Part shown: positions 2,111 to 26,484 of the stretch, one piece after another | Position numbering within the stretch: position 1 is the first letter of the stretch | Layout: every line of letters starts with the position of its first letter | Assembly (NCBI GenBank): GCA_011052815.1 | Contig: DRIG01000064.1 | Coordinates: 1-35,632, forward strand | Origin: a candidate division WOR-3 bacterium | Lineage (GTDB): Bacteria > Hydrothermota > Tepidihabitantia > SM23-42 | DNA length: 35,632 nt | Direction: 5' to 3' | The notes under the pieces: generated by a model | Told to the model about the DNA's origin: nothing | Databases searched by the model: none | The model's input: the letters and a program-made list of their open reading frames with translations, nothing else | Made by a program: the position numbers and the translations under genes

Positions 2111-2323
2111 TCATTGAATAGTTGAAGGTTTTATAGTGTAAGTATATCCATACCTCCAACCTTCGCCACCTGGGCCACCCGTATAATCAGGTAATGAAAG
2201 CATTTGCTGTTCCCATCTTCGTGCTTCATCTTCACTGTTGAAACTCCATTGCTTCCAATCACTCGGATCGCCATGCTCTTGCCGACGACGAACAGGATCA
2301 TCGGTTAATCCTACGTACTTCAT
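2111..2323 (-). CDS. small GIY-YIG-like protein
   Basis: 70 aa. The N-terminal KYVGLTDDPVRRRQEHGDP resembles the start of GIY-YIG nuclease domains (YxG, then R-rich helix), but the protein is too short for a complete domain and ends soon after a Trp/Glu-rich helix. Similar short proteins occur as stand-alone genes in bacteria and archaea; whether they cut DNA is not known. The start has a strong GAGGAGG site 6 nt away. The gene is driven by module B (promoter 2435-2462), which fits island cargo. Confidence 0.65.
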   Translation of the reverse strand: MKYVGLTDDPVRRRQEHGDPSDWKQWSFNSEDEARRWEQQMLSLPDYTGGPGGEGWRYGYTYTIKPSTIQ

Positions 2324-3932: not shown

Positions 3933-4937
3933 TTAATCGTTTTGGATATGACATTCTACATACTCCTTTATCTCTCCTTCTATACACGAGAATCTATCAT
4001 TTTTAATCTTGAATAAACCCTTAAATTTATCACCTAAGGCGTCGGGATATTTATCAACAATGGTTAATGTTTCAAGTGGTCTTCGTCTCATAGCAACGGA
4101 CTTCATAAAAAGCCATTTAGCCTTAAAATCAGTAACAGGGAGGGAATATCCGATAATAATTATTTTATTAGCCTCTTTTATTGAATTTGATGCTTCAGCC
4201 CAGAGAGAATCCAATAATTCATTCGAGTATCTCTTCGCTAATGTTGGTGGAATAATGATAGGTTCCATTTGCTTCTGACACCCTGGACACAGCGTTTTTG
4301 GATCTTCTGGGTTAATTACTTGGTCTGCAGCGACCTTTCCACTTAAGACATAGCAGTAATTCTTATTACATTTTTTACATGCCATCCAATTAAGAGAACC
4401 GTGCAATTTGATTAAACCAGGGCCATTTGAATATCCGCAGCTTCGCCGCCATTGATTATCTATATAAAATGCTGAGAAATTGCCTTTATAGTCTGGAACA
4501 TCTCTTTCTGATAAAACATTATCTACCAGAAGATCCCAGTTAAATGTAATCAGTGTATCAGTAGGTTTTAAGTTTTCTATCAGCTTTTTATGGTAAGGAC
4601 ATCTTTTACCATACAATATTTTATTAAGTGTCAGAAAAATCATCTCCAATAACTCTTTTCGGGCCATCTTCAACTCATTTTTGGATGTTTCTAAATCGAG
4701 CATAGTTAAAACTTCTTCAATATCCAATTCCTTTTCTTTTATATCTTCTTTTTTGAAGCAGTAATATTTCTCTAAGAAGTTAAATAAATTATGGAATCTT
4801 TGTCCTTCGATAGCATTTTTATCTATCAATTGCATAGCCTTTTTGAAAAAATCTCTGGCCGTTGGAGAACGAAGAGACACTTCAGACTTATCATATCCTG
4901 CTGATGCTCCAGCACCAAGAATATATACTTTATTCAT
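3933..4937 (-). CDS. SIR2-like NADase-type defence protein
   Basis: 334 aa. SIR2-family marks are clear: GAGAS at residues 8-12 (NAD-binding), TFNWD at 131-135 with the catalytic-type Asn, KLHGSLNW at 177-184 with the His, and IIIIGYSLPVTD near 259-270. A zinc ribbon is inserted (CxxC at 187/190 and 217/220). Related SIR2 domains in anti-phage systems degrade NAD to stop infected cells. The ATG at 4937 has GGGAGG 5 nt upstream; an ATG at 4970 in the same frame lies within the leader ORF. The start overlaps the leader ORF stop by 8 nt (ATGAATAA). Cargo of module C. Confidence 0.85.
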   Translation of the reverse strand: MNKVYILGAGASAGYDKSEVSLRSPTARDFFKKAMQLIDKNAIEGQRFHNLFNFLEKYYCFKKEDIKEKELDIEEVLTMLDLETSKNELKMARKELLEMIFLTLNKILYGKRCPYHKKLIENLKPTDTLITFNWDLLVDNVLSERDVPDYKGNFSAFYIDNQWRRSCGYSNGPGLIKLHGSLNWMACKKCNKNYCYVLSGKVAADQVINPEDPKTLCPGCQKQMEPIIIPPTLAKRYSNELLDSLWAEASNSIKEANKIIIIGYSLPVTDFKAKWLFMKSVAMRRRPLETLTIVDKYPDALGDKFKGLFKIKNDRFSCIEGEIKEYVECHIQND

Positions 4938-5055
4938 CTTTCCTCCCTTGCTGTAGTATGACATCTGCACCTACATGATAATGGTTCATCTTTACAATTG
5001 GCTCCCATTCAAGATTAAACAGGGTTCCTTGCAATTCGAATCTGTCAATCAGCAT
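4930..5055 (-). CDS. 41-codon leader ORF, family MLIxRF (copy 1)
   Basis: Encodes MLIDRFELQGTLFNLEWEP continuing to GRKDE. A second copy at 19778-19915 keeps the frame through silent changes, conservative replacements and a 6-nt in-frame insertion, which argues that it is translated. It has no cysteines, no signal and no domain I know. AAAAGGAG lies 12 nt ahead of the ATG. The stop lies inside the start of the SIR2-like gene. It could be a regulatory leader peptide or a small antitoxin-like partner. Confidence 0.65.
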   Translation of the reverse strand: MLIDRFELQGTLFNLEWEPIVKMNHYHVGADVILQQGRKDE

Positions 5056-5110: not shown

Positions 5111-5153
5111 AAGGTATGTTCTTTAGTAGAAAATCCTACTAAAGACATACCTT
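5111..5153 (-). ncRNA. leader hairpin of module C
   Basis: Outer stem AAGGTATGT/ACATACCTT, inner 9-bp stem CTTTAGTAG/CTACTAAAG, loop GATTTT. Same outer stem as in modules B, D and E but a different inner stem than B and D. Followed by GTTGTATTAGG, so a weaker terminator than D. Confidence 0.7.
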
Positions 5154-5169
5154 CTCTTTTCTTCTTTCT

Positions 5170-5197
5170 ATTATACCAACTATTCCCAATCTGTCAA
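5170..5197 (-). promoter_or_regulatory. sigma70-type promoter of module C
   Basis: Minus strand: TTGACA (5197-5192), 16 nt, TATAAT (5175-5170), extended -10 TGG. The -35 box overlaps the TGA stop (5194-5196) of the upstream 506-aa gene. The inverted repeat GAAATTAG TTT CGAAATTTC (5201-5220) codes for the last residues of that gene. Confidence 0.8.
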
Positions 5198-12727: not shown

Positions 12728-13323
12728 TTCGTCACCCCTGTCTGCCGCGCTGCTTCGCTCTGCGGCCTGCCTGTCGGGCACACGGGCGCAGGCAGGTCCG
12801 CGAGCATGTCGGCAATTCCCACAGGCTCGCCCAGCGGCTCTCCTGCTATGAACCACCGCACCGTTCCTTGGCCTTTGTTGTTGACATCCAGGATCAGAAA
12901 GACGCCGACCTTATAACGGTATTCGCCGCGCGGATCAGTGAAGCCTTGCAGCTTATTAATGTCCCTTTCGTTGTCGGCGGAGCAATTCCTGGCGTTCGAC
13001 TTCTTTACTTCGATGACCAACAGATTGTTGTCCTGAACTCCTCGCTTGTGGATGATAATATCCGGGTAAACGGTAACCGCATCCAGGTCATCGGAACGGC
13101 AGTCCGTTGGGCCAACGGGGAGACGCTTCGTCTCGTTGCCTTGTCGGTTGTACTCACAATCCACATTATAATCCGGGAAGGCTTCGTGGAGATGTTCTGC
13201 GAGACAATGCGTGATCGATCGCTCGTTGACGTTGAGGCCGAGCAGATCGCCGTCCTTACTCAGGAAACCCACGAGGGCGGAACGGAAGCGATCACGAACC
13301 TCAGGTGGAACGCCGCCGTTCAT
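12724..13323 (-). CDS. PD-(D/E)XK nuclease-like accessory gene of the type I locus
   Basis: 199 aa. Core DIIIHKRG...NLLVIEVKKS has the D and ExK of a restriction-nuclease fold; an N-terminal Glu (around residue 35-45) may complete it. Overlaps hsdM and hsdS by 4 nt. The last 30 codons are an inserted GC-rich palindrome (CCTGCCTG at 12766-12773 with CAGGCAGG at 12789-12796), giving a Pro/Arg/Gln-rich tail unlike the body. Similar small genes occur within other type I loci; their job is not known to me. Confidence 0.7.
   Translation of the reverse strand: MNGGVPPEVRDRFRSALVGFLSKDGDLLGLNVNERSITHCLAEHLHEAFPDYNVDCEYNRQGNETKRLPVGPTDCRSDDLDAVTVYPDIIIHKRGVQDNNLLVIEVKKSNARNCSADNERDINKLQGFTDPRGEYRYKVGVFLILDVNNKGQGTVRWFIAGEPLGEPVGIADMLADLPAPVCPTGRPQSEAARQTGVTK
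12766..12796. repeat. palindrome inserted in the 3' end of the nuclease-like gene
   Basis: CCTGCCTG and CAGGCAGG separated by 15 bp. The sequence is of a kind often dispersed in genomes and here encodes the tail of the gene without breaking the frame. Confidence 0.55.
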
Positions 13324-15332
13324 TCCGTCACCTCCGCGAGCATGTCCGCGATTTCCTGCTCAATCTTCTTCAAGTCGGCTTCGATTTCCTCCAGTGGTCG
13401 CGGAGGCGTATACTTGTAGAAGTAGCGGTTGAAGTTAATCTCGTAGCCTATTCTTGTCTTGCTGTGATCGATCCAGGCGTCGGGAACATGTGGCAAGACT
13501 TCCCGTTCAAAATAAGCCTGCACATCTTCCTTCAGCGGCACGTTCTCGTAATCGCGCAATTCTGGATCAGGATCGGGATTGCCCTTGGAATCAGTGCAGA
13601 TGTCCGCCGTTTCATCCCGCTCCGCCAGCGCCATAAGTATGGCCTTGAAAAGGGACGCTGGGACTTTGATGCTCGCTTTCCTGAACGCCTCTTTCAACAT
13701 CTTCACAAAACGATCGCGGTTCTTGACCACACCCATCCCACTCAAGTCGTTAAGTGCCGATAGGATCGCTTCCTGAAGTCTCTTCCCTTCAGCTATCTCG
13801 GATTCGGCCTTCTTTTTATCCTTGCGCTTCTTACTCGTTGCCAGGTTCAGGAATTGTCTGGTTTCACGTACGCGCGCAAGTCGTTCGTCTGTAACAGTGA
13901 AATTCAACTTCAAAGGTCGCTCTACCGTGATACGCCGGTAGCCGAAGTCCTCGTTATCGAATATCTTGACATACTCTTTTTCCCTAAACTCGCCGTAGAG
14001 GCGGGTGATTTCTTCTCGTTGGTCTTCGCATATCTCGTGGCGCTTCTGGCCCAAACTCTTGCGCATTTTCTTGAAGAAAGTCCTGGCATCCACAAGTTGA
14101 ACTTTGCCTCTGCGCTTCCTTTCCTTCCGGTTCGTAACAATCCAGAGGTAGGTATAGATGCCGGTATTATAGAAAAGCTGGTCGGGCAGGGCGACAATGC
14201 CTTCCAGCCAGTCGTTTTCGATAATCCAGCGACGGATTTCACTCTCGCCAGAGCCTGCACCGCCGGTAAACAAAGGAGACCCGTTGAAAACTATGGCAAG
14301 GCGCGTGCCACCTTCTTTGGGATCCTTCATCTTACTGATCATATGTTGCAGAAAAAGCAAGGACCCATCGTTGATGCGCGGCAGTCCCGCGCCGAAGCGG
14401 CCTCCGAAGCCCTGTTCCTCATGTTCCCGCTTGATAAAATCAGCCTCAGGTTTCCACTCCACACCGAAAGGTGGATTAGCCAACATATAATCAAACTTTT
14501 TATCATGGAAACGGTCTTCCGTGAAACTATCCCCAAAAGCGATGTGATCAATATTATAACCCTTGATCAGCATGTCCGAGCCGCAAATAGCATAGGCCTG
14601 CGGGTTGAAATCCTGTCCAAAGACCTCGAGACGTGCGTCAGGGTTAAGCTCGCGTACATAGCTTTCAGCAACAGAAAGCATCCCTCCGGTGCCGCAGGCA
14701 GGGTCATAAAGAGTTTTAATGATGCGTTTCGTGGTGAGAATATCGGTGTCAGGGAGAAACAGAAGGTCAACCATTAGCCGGATAACTTCGCGCGGCGTGA
14801 AATGGTCGCCCGCTTCTTCGTTACTAGCTTCGTTGAAACGCCTGACAAGTTCCTCAAAGATATAGCCCATCTCTCGGTTGGACACTCTGTCCGGGTGGAG
14901 ATCTATTTCGCAGAACTTTGATACGAGAAGATACAACCGATTGGCTTTGTCGAGTTTGGCAATGTGTTCCTCAAAGCCGAAGTGCTCGATGATCTCGCGG
15001 GCACGACTGGAGAAACCTTTGATGTAGTTCGTAAGATTGGCTGCGATGTTGTTGGGATCACCTTTCAGCTTTTCGAATGTAAAGCGACTCGTGTTGTAAA
15101 ATGGTACACCGGATACCCGACAAAGGATGGGTTCCACGTTTTTAAGCTTGGAGTCTTGCAGCTTCCTGAGCTTGTTCAATACTTTTTCCTTGGTCGGTTC
15201 CAACACGCAGTCAAGCCGCCGAAGGGCTGTCATCGGAAGCATGACATCCTTGTATTGATTCGGCCGATATGGCCCGCGCAGGAGATCTGCAACAGACCAG
15301 ATGAAACTAACCTTTTCACCGAAGTTATTCAC
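13320..15332 (-). CDS. hsdM: type I restriction enzyme methylation subunit
   Basis: 670 aa. Starts MNNFGEKVSFIWSVADLLRG at a GTG with AAGGGAG upstream. Methyltransferase motifs: DPACGTGG (210-217) for SAM, NPPF (286-289) for N6-adenine transfer, and HFTPREVIRLM before them. A charged C-terminal third binds HsdS. The start overlaps a 43-codon leader ORF by 8 nt (GTGAATAA). First main gene of a ten-kb operon with higher GC than the genes around it, which suggests it came in as a block. Confidence 0.95.
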   Translation of the reverse strand: MNNFGEKVSFIWSVADLLRGPYRPNQYKDVMLPMTALRRLDCVLEPTKEKVLNKLRKLQDSKLKNVEPILCRVSGVPFYNTSRFTFEKLKGDPNNIAANLTNYIKGFSSRAREIIEHFGFEEHIAKLDKANRLYLLVSKFCEIDLHPDRVSNREMGYIFEELVRRFNEASNEEAGDHFTPREVIRLMVDLLFLPDTDILTTKRIIKTLYDPACGTGGMLSVAESYVRELNPDARLEVFGQDFNPQAYAICGSDMLIKGYNIDHIAFGDSFTEDRFHDKKFDYMLANPPFGVEWKPEADFIKREHEEQGFGGRFGAGLPRINDGSLLFLQHMISKMKDPKEGGTRLAIVFNGSPLFTGGAGSGESEIRRWIIENDWLEGIVALPDQLFYNTGIYTYLWIVTNRKERKRRGKVQLVDARTFFKKMRKSLGQKRHEICEDQREEITRLYGEFREKEYVKIFDNEDFGYRRITVERPLKLNFTVTDERLARVRETRQFLNLATSKKRKDKKKAESEIAEGKRLQEAILSALNDLSGMGVVKNRDRFVKMLKEAFRKASIKVPASLFKAILMALAERDETADICTDSKGNPDPDPELRDYENVPLKEDVQAYFEREVLPHVPDAWIDHSKTRIGYEINFNRYFYKYTPPRPLEEIEADLKKIEQEIADMLAEVTE

Positions 15333-15456: not shown

Positions 15457-15502
15457 TAACCATCCTCCTTTTCCCTATCGTACTCCAAGCACCACCTTAA
15501 TA

Positions 15503-15530
15503 AATTTACACTTTTTTAACATTATGTCAA
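15503..15530 (-). promoter_or_regulatory. second promoter of the hsd operon
   Basis: Minus strand: TTGACA (15530-15525), 16 nt, TAAATT (15508-15503). It lies downstream of the module D hairpin, so it could express hsdM when the hairpin stops transcripts from the first promoter. It matches the promoter of the DUF4139 gene (26229-26256) at 23 of 28 positions. Confidence 0.6.
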
Positions 15531-15561
15531 CTGTTTTCAATTTTCATATCTTACAAAAAAA

Positions 15562-15603
15562 AAGGTATGGCTTCAGCAGACGTGCTGCTGAAGTTCATAC
15601 CTT
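15562..15603 (-). ncRNA. leader hairpin/terminator of module D
   Basis: Read leftwards: AAGGTATG, inner stem CTTCAGCAG/CTGCTGAAG, CATACCTT followed by ten T in all. This is the form of a strong intrinsic terminator about 60 nt after the start of transcription, before the hsd operon. Either a premature stop that is relieved under some condition, or the source of a tiny RNA. Confidence 0.75.
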
Positions 15604-15619
15604 CTCTTTTCTTCTCTTT

Positions 15620-15647
15620 ATTATACCAACTATTCCCCACCTGTCAA
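15620..15647 (-). promoter_or_regulatory. sigma70-type promoter of module D
   Basis: Minus strand: TTGACA (15647-15642), 16 nt, TATAAT (15625-15620), extended -10 TGG. Inverted repeat 15651-15670 just upstream. Nearly identical to module B over about 110 bp. Confidence 0.8.
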
Positions 15648-15690
15648 GGGGAAATTAGTTTCGAAATTTCAGGGGTAAGGCCACTAATGT

Positions 15691-15728
15691 CACTCCGTCA
15701 TTCTGGTAATTACCAGAATGACGGATTG
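15691..15728. repeat. 38-bp palindrome (TCATTCTGG family), copy 2
   Basis: CACTCCGTCATTCTGGTAA followed directly by TTACCAGAATGACGGATTG. One arm base differs from perfect pairing. Same element as 1801-1838. Confidence 0.75.
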
Positions 15729-15774
15729 TGGTCGTGTTGTAAAGATCCGACTTCGTGGTTTTTTTAAAATAACG

Positions 15775-18302: not shown

Positions 18303-19631
18303 TTACCTCTTCTTAAATTTTGATGTGTATTTATTGAAAAAGTGTTTTGCTAGAGCTTTTGTATTCATTTTTTCATACATGTCTATTTTTTTATCTATTC
18401 TTTTATCTCTTGGAACATCAATTATCATATGAAGTACATTTTTGAATCTGGATGCTGGACCTTCGCTGTCAAGTCGTCCTATAATAATAAGATCGTTATC
18501 AAGTGCATCCATCAACGAAGAAATATTTTGTGAATTCCAAGATTTTATCATTTGTTTGTTATAGTACTCTGCTCCCCAAGAGCATCCATATTGATTGCCA
18601 ATATATGAAAGAAATACAGCTCGAGTACATTGGTCTATTGCCGAGGAAGGAATAACGTCGCCCAACTCATAAAGTTCTTTAGCGTATCTAGGTTCATTGT
18701 GGAAATTATCTATGCCTTGACACGCTTCATATAATTTTTCAGCTGCACTTGTGAAGATTGCTACACGAATAGATTCGGGTACAAATTTAAATCCATCAAC
18801 TTTTTTGATAAATATTAAAGCTTGTTTATTCGCCATAGAATCTGCTTCGGTCCTTAATTTGGCTATTACCCTTCCAATCCTTGATTTTGTACTTGAATCT
18901 GCAAGTTCCCATAAAACAGGAGCCAATGTTAATATGTTATTGATATAGATGTGGTTAGATTTTTCTTTAATAAAGTCGTCGAAAAGTCTATTGAGTGTAA
19001 TATTTACTATCTTAGATGATTGTTCACGATAAGTTGCCTCAAATTCAGATATACTAGAAGATACATCTTCTGTTTGGAGTTTCTTTAACAAGTTTTTTAA
19101 ATTTATACCTGGGGAGGGAACTTGATGAGCTAAAACATACTTAATACAATTTTTGATTATATTTAGCGCTTCGATTGGATCGAGTAGAGCGTCAAATTGA
19201 TGTGCTAAAGAATAGTGGTTTCGTATTTCTCTCGCCTTATGCAAAAAAAACCATGCTTCTTCTGAAATAATGCCGAGTTCGAAACAATGATCAATTAAAT
19301 TTTTATCATCAAGAATATTTATTAAGTCTCTTTCATCGTGAATTTCCTTCTTAATTATTGCTTCCAAGTGTTCTTTGCCATATGCCATTACTTTGGTACG
19401 CAAATCTGCCATAGCTCTATTCCAAAAGTAAAGACAAGCTGAGTCATAGGCTTCAATCTGCCATACATCCAAGGCTTTTTCTATCCAAGGACCATGACAT
19501 TCTTTACGAATTGCCCTTTTAATAGTGGCGGGTTCTATTTTTGAATGAGAAAGCTTTTTCAACGCAAGTAAACGATCTTTTTGGGCTGGATCATCAATTG
19601 GTGTTGCAGGCAAAATTTCTCCTTTGTTCAC
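18303..19631 (-). CDS. helical protein with HEPN-like motif
   Basis: 442 aa, almost all helix. Near residues 130-145: EAWFFLHKAREIRNHYSLAH, with RNH...H spacing like HEPN RNase sites. The last 250 residues form a repeat-like helical region. GTG start with GGAGG 9 nt ahead; a 65-codon gene overlaps the first 38 nt. Third gene of module E, so likely the effector there. Family not identified with certainty. Confidence 0.6.
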   Translation of the reverse strand: MNKGEILPATPIDDPAQKDRLLALKKLSHSKIEPATIKRAIRKECHGPWIEKALDVWQIEAYDSACLYFWNRAMADLRTKVMAYGKEHLEAIIKKEIHDERDLINILDDKNLIDHCFELGIISEEAWFFLHKAREIRNHYSLAHQFDALLDPIEALNIIKNCIKYVLAHQVPSPGINLKNLLKKLQTEDVSSSISEFEATYREQSSKIVNITLNRLFDDFIKEKSNHIYINNILTLAPVLWELADSSTKSRIGRVIAKLRTEADSMANKQALIFIKKVDGFKFVPESIRVAIFTSAAEKLYEACQGIDNFHNEPRYAKELYELGDVIPSSAIDQCTRAVFLSYIGNQYGCSWGAEYYNKQMIKSWNSQNISSLMDALDNDLIIIGRLDSEGPASRFKNVLHMIIDVPRDKRIDKKIDMYEKMNTKALAKHFFNKYTSKFKKR

Positions 19632-19970: not shown

Positions 19971-20013
19971 AAGGTATGTTCTTCAGTAGAAAATTCTACT
20001 AAAGACATACCTT
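19971..20013 (-). ncRNA. leader hairpin of module E
   Basis: Outer stem as in module C; inner stem CTTTAGTAG with CTACTGAAG, in which an A-to-G change relative to module C turns a U-A pair into U-G, so pairing is kept. Confidence 0.7.
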
Positions 20014-20030
20014 CTCTTTTTCTTCTCACA

Positions 20031-20058
20031 ATTATACACATTATTTTCAATTTGTCAA
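20031..20058 (-). promoter_or_regulatory. sigma70-type promoter of module E
   Basis: Minus strand: TTGACA (20058-20053), 16 nt, TATAAT (20036-20031). Inverted repeat GAAATTAG TCT CTAATTTC at 20062-20080, perfect over 8 bp per arm, 3 nt upstream of the -35 box. Confidence 0.8.
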
Positions 20059-21163: not shown

Positions 21164-21194
21164 TTGACTTTTAATTTATTCTGGATACTATAAT
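21164..21194 (+). promoter_or_regulatory. promoter of module F
   Basis: TTGACT (21164-21169), 19 nt, TATAAT (21189-21194). The only one here with a spacer other than 16. The -10 box region is followed by AAAAGAGAAGGTATG as in modules B to E. Confidence 0.6.
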
Positions 21195-21207
21195 CATGAA
21201 AAGAGAA

Positions 21208-21262
21208 GGTATGTTTGTTCTATAGTTCTATTTTCGAGCTATAGAGCAGATGTATCTTTTTT
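21208..21262 (+). ncRNA. leader hairpin/terminator of module F
   Basis: Inner stem of 12 bp (21217-21228 with 21236-21247, containing CTATAG; two G-U pairs), outer GGTAT/GTATC pairs, then six T. Same architecture as modules B to E with an unrelated inner sequence, on the opposite strand. Confidence 0.65.
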
Positions 21263-21291: not shown

Positions 21292-21858
21292 ATGGATTCA
21301 ACATCAAGCAGTGACATAATTTTAATCATAATAGGCTTTGTTGGCTTATCGATTATGATAATCGTTAAATATCTAATAGATAAAAAGAGAGCAATGATCG
21401 AATCAAAAGAAGTGGGAAACGTAATAACAAAGGCATTAACAGAACTCCAAAAAACACCGCAGGATGTTTTAGAGATAATGTACCGTAATGTTGCAGAATT
21501 AAAAGGATACTATACAACGAATAAACAACAGGCAAAAAATGCATACAACTCTGCATTATTTGTATGTTTTCTTGGATTTACGATTTTTATAATAGGAGTA
21601 GCAATTAACTACCTTTCGCCGGCTAAAAAAACGATTATTCCCTACGCAACACTTGCTGGAGCAATCGTTGAAGTTATTTCAGGACTATTCTTCTGGTTAT
21701 ACAGTCAGACTGTTAAGCAAATAAATACTTTCCATGATAAATTAATAGAAACTCAACGCTACCTTGCAGCAATTCAAATAGCAAAAAGTATCTCAGATGA
21801 AAATCGCGATAAGGTTTACGCTAATATTGTAGATAAACTAATGAAAGCGAAAAAGTAA
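21292..21858 (+). CDS. CyanoTRADDas_TM-like membrane protein
   Basis: 188 aa from the ATG with AAAGGAGG ahead; an in-frame ATG at 21250 is inside the hairpin zone. Helix 1 (IILIIIGFVGLSIMIIVKYLI) near residue 10, and two more helices near 90-135 (FVCFLGFTIFIIGVAINYL; TLAGAIVEVISGLFFWLY), then a soluble helix (FHDKLIETQRYLAAIQIAK). This matches the two-helix domain associated with TRADD-N-like proteins in predicted cell-death or conflict systems. Its family is my recognition, not a search. Cargo of module F. Confidence 0.6.
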   Translation: MDSTSSSDIILIIIGFVGLSIMIIVKYLIDKKRAMIESKEVGNVITKALTELQKTPQDVLEIMYRNVAELKGYYTTNKQQAKNAYNSALFVCFLGFTIFIIGVAINYLSPAKKTIIPYATLAGAIVEVISGLFFWLYSQTVKQINTFHDKLIETQRYLAAIQIAKSISDENRDKVYANIVDKLMKAKK

Positions 21859-24350: not shown

Positions 24351-24396
24351 GATTTTCCTGCAAAGGGCGGAGGGGGAAGGGCATAGGGAGTGGTGC

Positions 24397-24445
24397 TGGA
24401 TGAAAGATCACCCCCACCTTAATCCTCCCCCCTCAAGGGGGAGGA
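24397..24445. repeat. GC-rich palindromic repeat R, copy 3
   Basis: Opposite direction to copies 1 and 2. It marks the edge between the island and the chromosome genes, in a 330-bp purine-rich gap that has no gene I can see; the gap also has the GAGATTCTTCGCTTCGCTCAG part of the 1299 repeat at 24529-24558. Confidence 0.75.
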
Positions 24446-24570
24446 GGAAAGGGGTAAGGGCAAAGGGCGGAGGGCATAGGGAAAGGGAGAAATGGAGAAA
24501 GGGGGAAACGGAGAAACGGGGAAAGAGAGGGAGATTCTTCGCTTCGCTCAGAATGACAAGGAGAGAGGGA

Positions 24571-26256: not shown

Positions 26257-26294
26257 GGGAATGGGCATAGGGCGAAGAGCAAAGGGAGCGGGGT

Positions 26295-26346
26295 TGGATG
26301 AAAGATCACCCCCACCTTAATCCTCCCCCCTCAAGGGGGAGGAGGA
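26295..26346. repeat. GC-rich palindromic repeat R, copy 4
   Basis: Same repeat as 24397-24445. Lies in the 400-bp gap 26116-26518, which otherwise has purine-rich runs and two promoters. Confidence 0.75.
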
Positions 26347-26374
26347 GCGGAGAATGGGTGAATGGGAGCGGTGT

Positions 26375-26424
26375 TGGATGAAAGATCACCCCCACCTTAA
26401 TCCTCCCCCATCAAGGGGGAGGAG
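26375..26424. repeat. GC-rich palindromic repeat R, copy 5
   Basis: Second copy in tandem, 80 bp after copy 4, including the GGGAGCGG(T/G)GTTGGATGAAAGATC lead-in. Confidence 0.75.
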
Positions 26425-26484
26425 AAGAGGGGAAAGGGCGGGGAGCGGGGGAAACGGAGACGGGGAGAATGGGAGAAACGGCTA

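Follow-up and report, generated by a model that had tools for sequence, protein, structure and literature searches.

A promoter–hairpin cassette before accessory genes of candidate division WOR-3 bacteria, a putative shuffled promoter-proximal terminator

Six promoter–hairpin modules in the window

The window analyzed here, a 35,632-nucleotide stretch (contig DRIG01000064.1) of a candidate division WOR-3 draft genome of 2.4 Mb in 111 contigs, carried six modules, A to F. In each of them, a sigma-70-type promoter was followed by an RNA hairpin 13–19 nt past the −10 box, and the hairpins showed a constant outer stem (GGUAUG/CAUACC), a changing inner stem and often a U tract behind. All six hairpins lay directly downstream of a near-consensus promoter, a point absent from the original prediction, which likewise named no members outside the window. 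TTGACA-N15-19-TATAAT was present ahead of modules A–E, and the window held 7 such sites compared with 0.04 expected. The exact GAGAAGGTATG motif occurred at 2411–2421, 5146–5156, 15596–15606 and 20006–20016 on the minus strand and at 21203–21213 on the plus strand; with one mismatch allowed, the window had 6 matches, against a mean of 0.56 in dinucleotide shuffles. The nine copies tested by folding gave z-scores of −5.0 to −8.6, and 0 of 200 shuffles were as stable.

The AAGGTATG...CATACCTT arrangement of module D was confirmed at 15562–15603 on the plus strand. Read on the minus strand, module D has the order of a transcript leader: a pattern-matched promoter, TTGACA-16-TATAAT (15620–15647), a short start rich in purines, GAGAAGAAAAGAGAAGG, then a hairpin obtained by folding with the outer stem GGUAUG/CAUACC and the inner stem CUUCAGCAG/CUGCUGAAG (15564–15601), and a tract of nine T (15555–15563; tail score 6.23). 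The scan also detected a possible second promoter, TTGACA-16-TAAATT, behind this hairpin (15503–15530, minus strand). The gene behind module D encodes HsdM of a type I restriction-modification operon (13320–15332, minus strand; Pfam N6_Mtase and HsdM_N, PADLOC MTase_I). One copy of a 41-nt inverted-repeat element (TCATTCTGGTAATTACCAGAATGA core), which is MITE- or REP-like, sits directly upstream of module D; the copies at 1799–1839 and 15689–15729 were 93% alike.

Modules A, B, C and E were likewise on the minus strand, with pattern-matched promoters and folded hairpins. Module A (promoter 376–403, hairpin 321–362) had an outer stem of GGGAUG/AUGCC and a poor T tract (TGGTTG). Module B (promoter 2435–2462, hairpin 2379–2416) had a strong T tract, and behind it lay a gene for a 70-aa protein (2111–2323, minus strand) that looked GIY-YIG-like by eye and had no Pfam match. 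Weak T tracts (TTGTTG in both) followed the hairpins of module C (promoter 5170–5197, hairpin 5113–5151) and module E (promoter 20031–20058, hairpin 19973–20011). Behind C was a SIR2-domain protein (3933–4970, minus strand; Pfam, PADLOC SIR2), and behind E a 442-aa protein without family (18303–19631, minus strand; no Pfam or PADLOC match). Module F, on the plus strand, had a TTGACT-19-TATAAT promoter seen in the sequence (21164–21194), a folded hairpin (21208–21256) with a strong T tract, and behind it a protein with a CyanoTRADD-associated membrane domain (21292–21858, plus strand; Pfam PF20712). Besides the GIY-YIG-like one, two of the window genes behind modules were without an assigned family. 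About 80 nt of upstream DNA were also common to modules B, C and D, and modules C and E had a longer common block, which extended into a small ORF. Three places (1350–1518, 24362–24503 and 26277–26481) held a G+C-rich repeat about 85 nt long, arranged in tandem and in either orientation.

The stem comparison of the original prediction was borne out in its details. The outer stem was kept in modules B–E, the one change in B turning G-C into G-U in the minus-strand RNA with the pair kept. The inner stems CUUCAGCAG (B and D) and CUUUAGUAG (C and E) differed by two C-G to U-A double changes, module E showed a single U-A to U-G change, and the inner stems of A and F were different again. The T tracts noted behind D, F and B were indeed strong.

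Members, RNA structure and terminator anatomy

A DNA search of the host's own genome gave seven places. The genomes of relatives were ranked by kinship to that of the window, and two search models were built, R1 from four sequences and R2 from 18. At E ≤ 1, R2 had matches in 17 of the 23 family genomes, part of them chance. At E ≤ 0.01 it matched 10 of 390 genomes, nine from WOR-3 and one from elsewhere; outside the phylum, the rate at this threshold was 1 of 243. Named records that agreed in both pattern and layout belonged to candidate division WOR-3, which carries the taxonomy name Caldifarciminota. A pattern scan of genome contigs for spread outside the phylum returned 17 loci, of which three were WOR-3 (two modules and one coding look-alike) and the rest, judged by eye, unrelated terminators or repeats. 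A pattern scan of viral contigs returned 28 loci, and by eye none had the module layout.

The final collection held 59 members or candidates from ten genomes of the host's family and two other WOR-3 genomes, after weak R2 matches (E up to 1) without promoter and motif were dropped by eye and G103:C22 was dropped as coding-like. A hairpin was found in 57 of the 59, and the promoter test covered the 58 with enough upstream DNA. A promoter matching at 9 or more of 12 bases lay just upstream in 49 of the 58, compared with 385 of 3000 random places. The promoter-bearing members also number 49, namely 48 tested entries and one, at a contig end, that was included for its likeness; entry g5, which passed the promoter test without a hairpin, is outside this set. 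They were distributed as G014 12, G000 10, G017 9, G011 8, G001 4 and G006 2, with one each in G002, G003, G096 and G103. Ten of the 59 entries were without a clear promoter or hairpin.

Two main sequence types were observed. Type 1, that of the window, had inner stems such as CUUCAGCAG, and type 2 (G011, G014, G017, G096 and G103) had CCUUGGGUGC-GAAA-GCACCUUAGG or its relatives. The promoter spacers and upstream DNA differed between the types, whereas GAGAAGGUAUG and CAUACCUU were common to both. Several entries departed from these layouts. A sub-family without a clear promoter (L165, L178, L186, L187 and L189) had AAAGGTRTAGTTG...GGGGCTATGCCTT, and a repeat with TTCTGGAGACAGAACGG preceded it in most copies. 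L123 (G017:C106:16762) had a type 2 promoter and GAGAAGGTATG followed by a ribosome-binding site with no hairpin, and is a natural hairpin-less cassette. At L131 (G000:C92), the module at 18518–18587 was followed in tandem by a second promoter, which had a shorter hairpin of its own (GTATAATTTCAGC...GCTGATTATACC).

Pairing was assessed in alignment A3, which comprised 18 mostly type 2 sequences aligned with MAFFT, structure not being used for fitting. In A3, 92.9% of cells paired, compared with 83.8% for shuffles and no more than 57.8% for slid controls, and both-sided changes were seen in 9 of 20 pairs. Covariation was 0.347 against 0.199 in shuffles, and 0 of 500 shuffles reached the observed value, which is to be read with the structure having been predicted from A3 itself and with relatedness inflating shuffle tests. 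The outer helix varied mostly on one side (for example, G-C to G-U), and the inner helix showed double changes in eight of nine pairs. The sense RNA was stabler than the antisense in 58 of 59 members and, for the bare hairpin, in 55 of 57; the exceptions were modules B and D, the latter being the focal one, whose antisense folded slightly better. These results support selection on the pairing at the RNA level. The original prediction had allowed selection on either RNA or DNA structure, and only its RNA part stood: hairpin length varied from 35 to 62 nt among members, which is unsuited to a DNA operator whose half-sites lie at a constant distance, and strand bias together with variable spacing ruled it out. 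A leader peptide with the AUG of GGUAUG as its start codon was also rejected, the open frame running 3 to 76 codons with no common length and several members reading GGUAUA.

Terminator-like anatomy near the promoter, as originally suggested, was found well beyond the window. The mean U-tract tail score was 5.10 at the hairpins and 2.15 at places 20–150 nt further on. A tail score of at least 4.5 was reached by 48 of 57 hairpins against 29 of 5000 background places, and 51 of 57 were positive by a terminator formula; because outer stem and U tract were built into the search models, both features are partly ascertained. A stable hairpin with a U tract, as in an intrinsic terminator, was present in most members and not fully in A, C and E, whose weak tails argue against one uniform function.

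We also compared control DNA. In the DNA around members (377,853 bases), 28 of 147 promoter-like sites had a terminator-like hairpin behind, compared with 28 of 800 random places, and 25 of those 28 hairpins carried GGTA[TC]. In 574 kb of unselected DNA, hairpins lay behind 6 of 146 promoters (G011, 393 kb) and 2 of 49 (G000, 181 kb), with no excess over random (66 and 92 of 1500). One of these 8 hits (L259) itself starts GGTATG, and R2 gave nothing under E 4 in the same 574 kb. Chance-level hairpins in the unselected DNA rule out a general promoter trait: these genomes do not habitually carry hairpins close behind promoters, and the existing ones mostly have the signature outer stem.

Genes behind the cassettes and cassette edges

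Many accessory genes behind the cassette are phage-defence genes. Elsewhere than in the window, the modules preceded Cas10d of type I-D, OLD, KAP/QatA-like, patatin effector, UvrD-PDDEXK, AbiU2 HEPN, TIR-TPR and PDC-M11A genes and a HATPase with a restriction-enzyme-like match. Non-defence genes were also present, namely a sigma-54 activator, an RHS protein and proteins that looked secreted by eye. At E ≤ 0.001, PADLOC matched 13 of 20 genes behind or near modules, these 20 having been chosen partly for their defence-like look and without a control set; we therefore call the list defence-rich and claim no enrichment.

Cassette edges were compared through the identity profiles of 18 pairs. Same-gene pairs (g14_C18b/g10_C157, g1_C18/g11_C47 and g14_C18a/g17_C315) were alike over the whole or most of the span, and in the more distant same-gene pair g0_C86/g1_C18 the leader was not alike. 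In most other pairs, likeness began near −80 or −40 and ended near +40 or +160, with about 50% identity outside. Some pairs had the upstream side in common (g11_C46a/g14_C196b) and others the downstream side (g17_C315/g14_C312). The edges varied from pair to pair; an insertion element or MITE would be marked by a fixed unit and target-site duplications. The breakpoints between unrelated genes coincided with the cassette edges. That likeness was mostly confined to promoter and hairpin, while the genes behind were unrelated, indicates cassette shuffling.

One locus was conserved. The cassette stood 20–32 nt before the start of a gene with GAF and sigma-54-activator domains (Pfam) in G000, G001, G011 and G017. 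In three genomes of a sister family, the same gene (protein 52–53% identical) also had a promoter, hairpin and T run, and the stem read ATAAGGCCCC...GGYGCCTTAT. This sister-family motif was not multi-copy: within the order it occurred in 3 of 27 genomes, at one place each and only at that gene.

A short ORF (MEAEIAVLFFIIMVNYKRNN and variants) lay 3′ of the hairpin in four type 2 members, which differed in the gene behind. At L113, L118, L119, L127 and in modules C and E of the window, short conserved ORFs stood between the hairpin and the gene, and the type 2 one overlaps the next ORF. Translational coupling is possible for these ORFs.

Proposed function and comparison with known systems

We consider it somewhat probable, judging from the sequence features, that the cassette acts as an intrinsic terminator close to its promoter, throttling accessory genes, and has been shuffled between unrelated ones. 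A strong sigma-70-type promoter would start the transcript, which would almost immediately contain the hairpin and U tract. Most transcripts would probably end after some 50–70 nt, and a fraction would read through into the gene, so that an acquired, costly gene would be given a ready-made yet throttled start of expression. The same cassette has come to stand before unrelated genes through recombination among its copies, as the abrupt loss of likeness on both sides shows. The cassette may in this way let accessory genes be swapped like parts. The weakest step concerns the outer stem, which might be read by RNA polymerase or by a separate factor; a constant outer stem combined with a freely changing inner stem suggests that the outer part is read by something.

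The original prediction had offered attenuation or a short RNA. Across members, the hairpin began about 10–27 nt after the −10 box, which leaves no room for an upstream antiterminator, and classical competing-fold attenuation does not fit this layout. Regulation, if any, would then come from intrinsic read-through or from a trans factor. In an extended form of the latter, the constant outer stem would be the site of a trans-acting antiterminator or of a phage-altered RNA polymerase, and all cassettes would form one regulon whose genes are stopped near +60 and released together. We regard this form as rather unlikely. NusG paralogs of the RfaH or LoaP type showed no co-occurrence signal with modules among the 23 family genomes: 18 of these encoded two NusG-domain proteins whether or not they carried modules, which makes a specialised NusG paralog look usual for the family, and the module-rich G017 (76% complete) showed none. 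The short-RNA alternative, in which promoter, hairpin and terminator form an independent gene whose product works at another place and a promoter of its own serves the gene behind, appears improbable. In 7 of 49 promoter-bearing members, D included, the 120 nt behind the hairpin contained a promoter-like site, but 139 of 2000 random stretches had one as well, so the excess is small. The lack of a second promoter in 42 of 49 makes a separate short RNA less likely and favors a hairpin within the gene's own mRNA leader. Moreover, the inner sequences differ freely, which leaves little for base pairing with a target.

Within such a leader, the hairpin might instead protect the transcript from 5′-end decay with little termination. 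Its position near the 5′ end and the weak T tracts of C, E and A would suit a stabilizer of this kind, yet stabilization needs no U tract and 48 of 57 members have a strong one; we hold this explanation to be doubtful. That the element is chiefly a recombination site, a recombinase acting on the DNA inverted repeat with the transcript incidental, would agree with likeness that starts and stops at the cassette. Ordinary homologous recombination between copies gives the same breakpoints, though, while G-U changes keep pairs in the sense strand and the spacing of the arms varies, which makes a dedicated site quite improbable. Least probable is an insulator that halts transcription from upstream genes. 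The nearest upstream ORF was codirectional in 29 of 49 members (one a contig-end artefact), but it was divergent in 12 and unresolved in 8, so insulation is not a common need, and a hairpin behind its own promoter would stop that transcription as well.

The throttling terminator that we favor has its closest counterpart in phages. Arbiol 2010 and Comeau 2014 reportedly dealt with PeSL cassettes of T4-type phages, said to join a promoter to a terminator-like stem-loop and to undergo modular shuffling. Passages of PMC4503421 and PMC3950731 describe these PeSL (promoter-early stem-loop) cassettes in T4-type phages. The likeness lies in a composite promoter and terminator-like stem-loop, in many copies before accessory genes and with modular shuffling around; the WOR-3 cassette likewise has a sigma-70-type promoter beside a terminator-like stem-loop and exchange of flanking genes. 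It differs in lying on bacterial chromosomes and in its constant outer stem GGUAUG/CAUACC. Module D had no match among 50,697 phage records, and in the first 40 kb of phage RB49 a hairpin and T run stood behind 3 of 34 promoters. Because of the bacterial lineage and the missing phage match of module D, we did not file the cassette as PeSL. Module D also had no match in the plasmids searched, nor did a search of viral contigs with a neighboring protein give any. For the archaeal virus HGTV-1, a passage of PMC3950731 describes a TATA-box and inverted-repeat motif before most left-side ORFs. This is similarly a repeated promoter with an inverted repeat before many ORFs, but in an archaeal virus with another promoter type, and our comparison of it with the WOR-3 cassette was by description. 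Attenuators based on intrinsic terminators include the leader-peptide, riboswitch and LicT/BglG types. They share the terminator between promoter and gene, but the WOR-3 hairpin is without an upstream leader able to form an antiterminator.

Rfam detected only a tRNA at gathering score in the window and 0 matches at 17 loci, and a permissive search of 15500–15750 gave only scores far under gathering. A literature search, from whose scope most subscription papers fell, found no report of a WOR-3 promoter–hairpin element. If the proposed function is true, the cassette would be a structured RNA leader new to Rfam and a bacterial chromosomal counterpart of the phage PeSL cassettes. It would then explain in concrete terms where defence genes obtain a promoter after their acquisition, what restrains them and how they can be exchanged. 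As a testable candidate site for a shared regulator of a defence island, it points to the constant outer stem, and if all cassettes did form one regulon, the cassette would be a plug-in that enrolls any gene that lands behind it.
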